From Actinomycetota bacterium (GTDB lineage: Bacteria; Actinomycetota; Actinomycetes; Nanopelagicales; Nanopelagicaceae): 64,000 bases of DNA. A program made the position numbers and the translations under genes. The DNA is taken from NCBI GenBank assembly GCA_009701575.1, contig WLJX01000001.1, positions 1 to 64,000 on the forward strand, in the 5' to 3' direction. Shown piece by piece: positions 53,663-55,593 of the stretch (position 1 is its first letter; every line of letters starts with the position of its first letter). The notes beneath the pieces were generated by a model that saw only the letters and a list, made by a program, of their open reading frames with translations, did not search any database and was not told the DNA's origin.

Positions 53663-53941
53663 TTATTCAGCAACTACTGCTTCAGGAGCAATTGGCTCAA
53701 GATTTTCAATTGTGAGAAGGCCTTCGTTGATTTCACGGAGCGCAATAGAGAGTGGCTTCTCATGAACATAGGTTTCAACAAGAGGTCCTACATATTCCAA
53801 AAGGCCTTCACCTAGTTGTGAGTAGTAAGCGTTGATCTGACGGGCGCGCTTTGCTGCATAAAGAACCAGGCTGTACTTTGAACCAGCAGCTTCTAACAAT
53901 TGATCGATTGGTGGGTTTGTAATGCCATCCATTGTTGTCAT
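53663..53941 (-). CDS. rpoZ: RNA polymerase omega subunit
   Basis: A 92-residue omega subunit, which helps assemble and stabilise RNA polymerase. It has [40 protein letters not shown] and the actinobacterial C-terminal extension with [22 protein letters not shown] precedes the ATG at 53941 by 6 nt; a 56-bp gap to the upstream gene contains a possible TTAAGA-17-TATTCT promoter. Confidence 0.94.
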
Positions 53942-53997: not shown

Positions 53998-54888
53998 TTA
54001 CCGGAGCCGATTAGCCCTCGAAGTCGCTAAGGATAGCAGTGCCGAGGCCACTTCCTCGACCTCATGATTTATCAGAACCTCATCAAACTCCCCCGCACAG
54101 GCCATTTCTTCCTCAGCCAGAGCTAACCTCGCTGCCCTGCGTTCGGTCGAATCTGTTCCCCTGCTCGTTAGTCGTTCTACTAATTCTTCCCAAGATGGTG
54201 GCGAAATAAATACGAGAAGTGCTTCTGGTTCAGCCCTTCTGATCTGTCGTGCTCCCGCTATTTCAATCTCGAGCAGTACATGTTTGCCCAAATTTCGGGC
54301 GCTCTCAACAGCATCCTTAAGAGTTCCATATCTTGCACCTGCAAATTCGGCCCATTCTAGAAATTCATTCTTAGCAATTAATTGGTCGAATTTTTCTTCA
54401 GTTATAAAATGGTAATCGTATCCGTCGCGTTCATTTTCACGCGGCTCGCGTGTTGTGGCAGACGTACTCACCCAAATCGCTGGATGGTTTCGAAGATGCG
54501 CAGTGATAGTGCTCTTCCCAACGCCACCAGGACCAGACATAACAATTAGCGCACCTTGGTTGACAGGTACTTTATTCAAAATCATCTCGCTTCTTAATCT
54601 CTGCAGTTGATGTTTACCCAGCCCAGCAATTCTACGCGTCTCCGATATACCTGCCTTCGACATAATCGTGAACGCTCGTCGTGGCCCAATTCCTGGTGCG
54701 GCATCAAGTAGTTCGCGAACTCGCATTCGCTGAATCGATTCTCTACCATCATTTATTGCATCAAATATTCCAATTTCACCGCCTGTAAGCGCCGCCTTGA
54801 TCTCAGCTCGATCACGTCTAGCAGCAACTGCTTTTTCCCCAGCTGCCTTCCGTTGTATCGGTGAGAGTTCAGGCGGTCTGTTGGCCAT
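53998..54888 (-). CDS. mihF-gmk: Fusion of mIHF nucleoid protein and guanylate kinase
   Basis: One uninterrupted 296-residue frame joins two proteins that are separate neighbours in other actinobacteria. Residues 1-102 match mIHF: SPIQRKAAGEKAVAARRDRAEIKAAL helix, then the helix-turn-helix-like DNA-binding part VRELLDAAPGIGPRRAFTIM and SETRRIAGLGKHQLQRLRSE. Residues 112-290 are guanylate kinase, GMP to GDP: P-loop GPGGVGKST (119-127, usually GPSGxGKxT), TTREPRENERDGYDYHFI, EWAEFAGARYGT. The linker is about ten residues (MILNKVPVNQ). There is no internal ATG with a ribosome binding site near the junction except Met 102 and Met 117. It begins 3 nt after pyrF. Confidence 0.93.
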   Translation of the reverse strand: MANRPPELSPIQRKAAGEKAVAARRDRAEIKAALTGGEIGIFDAINDGRESIQRMRVRELLDAAPGIGPRRAFTIMSKAGISETRRIAGLGKHQLQRLRSEMILNKVPVNQGALIVMSGPGGVGKSTITAHLRNHPAIWVSTSATTREPRENERDGYDYHFITEEKFDQLIAKNEFLEWAEFAGARYGTLKDAVESARNLGKHVLLEIEIAGARQIRRAEPEALLVFISPPSWEELVERLTSRGTDSTERRAARLALAEEEMACAGEFDEVLINHEVEEVASALLSLATSRANRLR

Positions 54889-54891
54889 TAG

Positions 54892-55593
54892 TTATTTCAA
54901 ACTATCCAAAATCCTCGCGGCGCCATCACTCATTTCCGATGGAGATATCTTTGCTAAATCTGTAATCGGTCTGCCAATCACTAAATAATTCGCCCCTGCT
55001 GCTATTGCTTCTACAGGGCTCATGACTCGTTTCTGATCTCCGAAATCCCCACCAGATGGTCGTACTCCGGGGGTGATGATTTCAATCTCCGGGCCCACCA
55101 CATTTCGAACTTCGTTTGCTTCAAAAGGTGAGCAAACTATGGAACGTGCGCCACTATTTTTCGCAAGAATCGCAAGTTTGATAGCGCTCTCTTTCGCGCC
55201 TTTTGCGAAGCCAATCTCAGATACATTTTCATCTGAAAGTGAAGTAAGAATTGTTACTGCAGTAATTGAAACTTCTGGCGCCGCATCACTAGCACTTCGA
55301 ATCATTTCCGAGCCACCGCTTGCGTGAACGGTTAGAAACTTTGGTCCTAAATCCTTGACCGAAGCTACCGCCCCAGCAACGGTATTAGGGATATCGTGAA
55401 GTTTTAAATCTAAGAAGACTTGGAAATCCCCAGAACTTTTCAATTCGCGCAAACCTACGGCGCCAAATTTCAGGAAAAATTCCAATCCAACTTTGTAGAC
55501 AGAAATTGAGGCATTAGTAGCGGAGATCCAACTCTTCGCTGTATCTAGATCCTTGGTGTCGAGAGCCAAAATTATCGGCGAGTTGGCGCTCAT
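54892..55593 (-). CDS. pyrF: Orotidine 5'-phosphate decarboxylase
   Basis: Last step of UMP synthesis. The 233-residue TIM barrel is of the short (bacillus-like) type, with IILALDTKDLDTAKSWI, the catalytic FLDLKLHDIPNTV (Lys-Asp network) and TPGVRPSGGDFGDQKRVMSP phosphate-binding region, ending YLVIGRPIT. Mycobacterial PyrF is the longer type 2, so this differs from that lineage. It overlaps pyrD by 4 nt. Confidence 0.95.
   Translation of the reverse strand: MSANSPIILALDTKDLDTAKSWISATNASISVYKVGLEFFLKFGAVGLRELKSSGDFQVFLDLKLHDIPNTVAGAVASVKDLGPKFLTVHASGGSEMIRSASDAAPEVSITAVTILTSLSDENVSEIGFAKGAKESAIKLAILAKNSGARSIVCSPFEANEVRNVVGPEIEIITPGVRPSGGDFGDQKRVMSPVEAIAAGANYLVIGRPITDLAKISPSEMSDGAARILDSLK

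Follow-up and report, generated by a model that had tools for sequence, protein, structure and literature searches.

The stretch of DNA considered here (the window, 64,000 nucleotides at the start of contig WLJX01000001.1, from a member of the Nanopelagicaceae) contains a gene that encodes in one chain the nucleoid protein mIHF, the actinobacterial-type integration host factor, and guanylate kinase (Table 1). A preliminary description made from the letters alone had read the gene as a single frame of 296 codons; its coordinates and strand hold, and both domains score above the curated cut-offs of their family models. There are zero internal stops in this frame, and 17 and 26 in the other two forward frames. 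In the first half, the model NF041260 (actino_IHF, which NCBI types as an equivalog_domain) is covered at positions 3-100 of 102, and the same segment matches the structures of sIHF (4itq, E 2.6e-19) and mIHF (6tob, E 2.3e-13); AlphaFold2 predicts helices at residues 41-45, 50-53, 57-63, 68-78 and 92-104. In the second half, TIGR03263 (guanyl_kin, with an equivalog cut-off) is covered at positions 1-178 of 180. No mIHF structure stands among the matches listed by VIA-align, where the kinase domain occupies the list; the assignment to IHF is a sequence-based one.

Table 1. The fused gene, its parts and its two neighbours in the window.
Feature	Residues	Position	Strand	Basis
Fused mihF-gmk gene		53998..54888	-	ATG start, 296 codons plus stop, single open frame
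mIHF (actinobacterial-type integration host factor) domain	6-101	54586..54873	-	NF041260, 93.8 bits (cut-off 60)
S13-like H2TH part of the mIHF domain	47-100	54589..54750	-	Pfam PF22525 (H2TH_5), 57.2 bits (cut-off 27)
RRIAG motif	85-89	54622..54636	-	aligned to RRVRG of sIHF; Ala in place of the third Arg
Linker	103-112	54553..54582	-	10 residues in 120/120 best listed relatives
Guanylate kinase domain	112-288	54025..54555	-	TIGR03263, 211.4 bits (cut-off 160.45); Pfam Guanylate_kin agrees
P-loop GPGGVGKST	119-127	54508..54534	-	identical in 120/120 best listed relatives
rpoZ, RNA polymerase omega, next gene downstream		53663..53941	-	TIGR00690, 73.4 bits (cut-off 23.6)
pyrF, orotidine-5'-phosphate decarboxylase, next gene upstream		54892..55593	-	NF001273, 230.9 bits (cut-off 193)

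The fused gene lies between pyrF, whose stop is 3 nt from the ATG of the fusion, and rpoZ. Relatives in which the two genes are split commonly have them in the order mihF-gmk-rpoZ, as the preliminary description had stated for mycobacteria and streptomycetes, and we infer that adjacent separate genes in this order are the ancestral state. A search of the host genome (1.17 Mb in 36 contigs, about 79% complete) for a second, free mihF or gmk found neither. Could the long frame simply be an error, a stop missed or a frameshift introduced in sequencing or assembly? The genome is a draft, with the completeness just given. The same long frame is present, however, in 17 of 17 genomes of the window's genus (in one of them it runs off the end of a contig) and in genomes of the family assembled as a single contig, and these independent genomes rule an artefact out in all practical respects: its probability is vanishingly small.

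Fusion is the prevailing arrangement among the window's relatives. The best 120 listed from a set of 5.8 billion proteins are 293-297 aa long and have both domains in one chain. (Genomes, families, genera and loci are referred to below, where needed, by our own handles in G, f, g and L.) When 131 genomes of the window's family were searched with the IHF model, 94 had the match in a frame of 197-344 codons and were counted as fused, two of these frames (197 and 249 codons) being ended by contig edges; 31 had it in a short frame (105-154 codons), one in an interrupted frame, one had a partial match below the cut-off and four had no match. By genus, 11 of the 17 in the family are fused and 6 split, and 34 family loci read directly, the window included, comprise 21 fused and 13 split. 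Two loci that carry the fused gene, about 80% identical to the window's (L035 and L040), come from metagenome genomes titled Bifidobacterium breve, and these titles look misassigned.

Outside this family the joined gene recurs. A one-row match to both halves in which a stop was counted was taken as fused only after the locus had been read, as the match frame reads through stops. In the Microbacteriaceae (family f36, Cryobacterium and others, by inferred assignment) 118 of 120 genomes match. In 110 a single row spans both halves, stop-free in 102 and with one stop at an unread place in eight, which makes at least 102 of 120 fused. The eight remaining loci, with the kinase half only or with two rows, were all read: seven (L187-L193) have no detectable mIHF and one has mIHF in another frame. 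Six of those seven genomes are 1.1-1.7 Mb in size, and their nucleoid half seems to have been lost or to have diverged beyond recognition. In another family, f34, both halves fall in one row in 7 of 59 genomes, all in genera g94 and g108. Two other genera of f34, g58 and g105, carry gmk without a detectable mIHF, in genomes whose completeness reaches 99%; some Actinomycetota may thus be able to do without mIHF. When 296 genomes from across the phylum were sampled, the matches listed included 45 one-row loci of other classes, which on reading proved to be 44 split and one fused. The latter, L183 (G888, family f52), has one mIHF-kinase frame of 287 codons; a second f52 locus, L184, is split, and the L183 fusion is apparently a recent extra event. 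The preliminary description had asked whether chains with both domains form one clade. The cases in Microbacteriaceae, in two genera of f34 and in another class show that they do not.

How often the fusion arose was approached with a tree of 61 loci built from five neighbouring genes, with mIHF and the kinase left out (family models were applied to pyrF and rpoZ only; the search seeds pyrD, coaBC and metK were given their names by reading the sequence). The tree requires five changes between the fused and split states, four of them forced by well-supported branches. Within the window's family three are needed, and the approximately unbiased (AU) test rejects a tree in which all 21 fused loci form one clade (p 0.019) but not one in which they do so without genus g141 (p 0.171). 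These two outcomes fit either one gain followed by re-splitting in g7 and g142 or two gains. In f34, where split g108 loci lie between fused g94 and fused g108, two changes are counted. Taken with the cases above, at least five separate gains are likely from the sequence comparisons (in the window's family, Microbacteriaceae, g94, g108 and f52), with the proviso that some changes may instead be re-splitting and that tree counts alone cannot distinguish gain from loss.

Comparison of the fused proteins points to constraint on both halves. All 56 fused proteins compared match both family models at E <= 0.001. In the mIHF half R24, R27, G68, G91 and Q94 never vary, and K31 and R86 scarcely do; in the kinase half G119, P120, G124, K125, S141, S143, T146, R147, R150, E153, Y159, E178, Y187, G188 and T189 are invariant, among them residues that we take to form the P-loop and the GMP site. 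Against three close relatives (L034, L083, L085) the window's gene has ratios of nonsynonymous to synonymous substitution (dN/dS) of 0.056-0.065 for mIHF and 0.028-0.040 for the kinase, with 0 for the linker. The linker has zero amino-acid changes in these comparisons while its silent sites have diverged (dS 0.9-2.1), so among these four loci it is evidently translated and constrained. Silent sites are saturated in most wider pairs, which gives no ratio there. Structure prediction points to a firm joint in the window protein (AlphaFold2 predicted TM-score, pTM, 0.88; mean of the per-residue confidence score pLDDT 92 across the block of residues 101-110), and a Microbacteriaceae fusion gave a pTM of 0.62 with the linker predicted to be disordered; pTM by itself carries little weight, and the input alignments of the two models differed in their mix of rows. 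The models suggest a joint that is fixed in the window's lineage and flexible in Microbacteriaceae.

Two sequence features that might have marked the fusion do not. The preliminary description had drawn attention to the P-loop GPGGVGKST, but the same P-loop is found in unfused loci of genera g6, g7, g142 and g144, the fused loci of g4 and g145 carry GPSGVGKS in its place, and the fused Microbacteriaceae proteins have GPTAVGKG in 120 of 120 listed; it is therefore no special mark of joining. The second is the RRxRG motif of mIHF, whose arginines are presumably DNA contacts. Among the 61 loci its third place is R or K in 24 of 31 split loci and in none of 30 fused ones. A rule that fusion always costs this residue fits that set and fails in a wider set, where 55 of 116 fused proteins keep the third arginine.

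The loss of that arginine in the window also bears on whether the mIHF half still does anything, or is a degenerate leftover that serves the kinase as a mere N-terminal extension or folding aid. Apart from the arginine, such decay could be read from the faster change of mIHF (dN 0.059-0.068 vs 0.025-0.033 in the kinase), from IHF hidden Markov model scores of 80 to 102 bits in the window's genus vs 130 to 138 in split g6, g8, g144 and g146 (split g7 also scores low), and from the absence of mIHF before gmk in some Microbacteriaceae. A leftover would hardly be expected, however, to evolve at a dN/dS of about 0.06, to hold the invariant and nearly invariant residues listed above across 56 fused proteins, or to be the sole mIHF found in its genome, and we consider this explanation quite improbable. 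A case against the fusion raised at the outset, a separate mihF elsewhere combined with lost DNA-contacting residues in the fused copy, fares likewise in two parts: the separate mihF was not found, which favours the fusion, and the alanine at the third place counts the other way, in so far as the contact role that we assume is right.

The most probable explanation, in our judgement, is a two-domain protein that would sit on the nucleoid, where it would bend DNA and turn GMP into GDP. It would have arisen when the stop that separated two adjacent genes of one operon was lost; both domains would keep their ancestral chemistry, and translation as one chain would fix mIHF and kinase at 1:1 and place the kinase on DNA. 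This reading builds on the single frame, the lack of any other copy found, the constraint on mIHF, linker and kinase among close relatives, a conserved location flanked by pyrF and rpoZ, and the occurrence of the fusion in several separate branches. A precedent for a tolerated C-terminal partner comes from Mycobacterium smegmatis: several fluorescent or tag fusions of mIHF could stand in for the native essential protein, most of them with normal growth and the Dendra2 fusion with a slight delay (PMC10028186). A C-terminal kinase would probably be tolerated in the same way.

Several points weigh against this reading. The six split genera of the window's family have retained separate genes, and the seven Microbacteriaceae loci L187-L193 have gmk with no detectable mIHF in front. 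Only two of the three RRxRG arginines are kept in the window protein. In M. tuberculosis mIHF is highly abundant (PMC6155035), and an equal ratio with a housekeeping kinase would be odd unless expression has shifted. The linker has a dN/dS of 0.75, 0.75 and 0.92 in three other fused pairs (L097/L098, L115/L117 and L122/L123), where it evolves almost freely. Finally, joining of neighbours may be neutral, and start sites near the linker could yield a second product; these last two deserve separate treatment.

Neutral joining is a serious rival, and one that overlaps with a nucleoid-bound kinase: operon neighbours would have been joined when the intervening stop was lost, mIHF would tolerate C-terminal additions, and the halves would work without cooperating. 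The route is mutationally easy. The two genes are adjacent in split relatives and share one frame in 7 of 31 split loci, and of the 45 same-frame matches from other classes whose loci were read (loci chosen for one-frame matching, which do not estimate how frequent frame-sharing is), 44 have no more between the two genes than one or a few stops and 24-99 nt. Linker length and sequence vary between lineages (25 residues in g141), the three pairs just named show a linker in near-free evolution, and the Microbacteriaceae linker is predicted to be disordered. What neutrality accounts for less readily is wide retention, in 102 to 110 of 120 Microbacteriaceae genomes and 11 of 17 genera of the window's family, together with a linker of constant length in the 120 best listed relatives, unchanged against three of them, and the predicted fixed joint in the window protein. 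We regard neutral joining as quite possible, at a little under an even chance.

An internal start near the linker could supply free guanylate kinase beside the full-length fusion and so uncouple the two doses. In the window the candidates are Met102 (Shine-Dalgarno energy -2.9 kcal/mol) and a TTG at residue 104 (-5.5), and these are of ordinary strength: among 2052 internal start codons of neighbouring genes, 16% reach -5.5. Elsewhere in the family the sites are stronger: the best near-linker candidate has a median of -4.8 kcal/mol over the 21 fused loci vs -3.0 in random windows, genus g5 (L093 and L094) has an internal ATG 24 nt before the kinase match at -9.1 and -11.2 (1% of background), and one g1 locus has a TTG at -10.1. 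The g5 sites and the family median make dual products plausible, at least in g5. Control medians were -7.2 kcal/mol for rpoZ starts, -3.1 for mIHF starts and -2.9 for split gmk starts, and the low values of the latter two mean that the energy method would miss true starts. Five loci (L087, L088, L090, L096 and L101), however, have no in-frame start from the end of the mIHF match up to the kinase match, and comparison of close relatives shows protein-level constraint on the linker. As a general account of the fusion, dual products seem unlikely.

A bolder version would have Actinomycetota repeatedly invent a nucleoid-bound kinase, with the two halves coupled by the fixed joint in the window's Nanopelagicales lineage, where GMP or (p)ppGpp at the kinase site might alter DNA bending. 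If this were true, one molecule would read out guanine nucleotide status as chromosome structure. Regulation of guanylate kinase by (p)ppGpp is the subject of PDB entry 4qrh, to judge by its title. The host genome encodes a RelA/SpoT homologue, which provides context only for (p)ppGpp. We think this extension very doubtful. With respect to other nucleoid proteins, Lsr2 gave no match in the host genome search. There is a partial HU-family match (positions 54-89 of 90, in a 96-codon frame at G000:C23:98978-99085), and this organism may have a diverged HU as a further nucleoid protein.

Guanylate kinase supplies GDP needed for RNA, DNA and alarmones. Of mIHF, earlier reports state that it bends and compacts DNA with no sequence preference (PMC3724605) and that it organises the mycobacterial chromosome. 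In M. tuberculosis the protein is essential and is reported to rank in the top ten by abundance, and deletion of mihF there required gmk and rpoZ in trans owing to polar effects (PMC6155035). Both parent families are well known; their fusion is widespread and recurrent, and no description of it turned up in the open-access full-text literature searched. Public records label the joined proteins simply guanylate kinase; with these records and an NCBI IHF model typed as a domain, the architecture is already in the databases. Fusion in freshwater Nanopelagicales and in most sampled Microbacteriaceae, likely by separate events, would make a tie between nucleoid organisation and guanine supply testable in a way that adjacency alone does not. 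It also poses a dosage puzzle, in that the fusion would force equal numbers on a nucleoid protein and a housekeeping enzyme, and named Cryobacterium records carry the fusion, so the question is accessible in culture.

Among known systems, the closest to the N-terminal part are the free actinobacterial IHF proteins, Streptomyces sIHF (SCO1480; 4itq and 6bek) and mycobacterial mIHF (Rv1388; 6tob), which align over residues 6-101, share the H2TH domain and are encoded before gmk and rpoZ. They are separate proteins of about 105 aa, whereas mIHF in the window is the N-terminal third of a 296-aa chain and has alanine for the third arginine of RRxRG. The C-terminal part resembles bacterial Gmk such as M. 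tuberculosis Rv1389 (1s4q and 1znw); the window protein differs from it by the N-terminal mIHF domain and by its P-loop, the latter difference shared with some unfused relatives. More distantly, the guanylate kinase-like domains of MAGUK proteins (for example, PSD-95) are also a guanylate kinase fold joined to other domains. The nearest counterparts of the whole chain are the Microbacteriaceae 'guanylate kinase' records of about 300 aa (Cryobacterium, Curtobacterium and Salinibacterium), which have both domains in one chain and in the same order as the window protein, but whose linker runs to 15-17 residues in 118 of the 120 listed, whose P-loop is GPTAVGKG, whose joint is predicted to be flexible and which, by the tree, are likely of separate origin.
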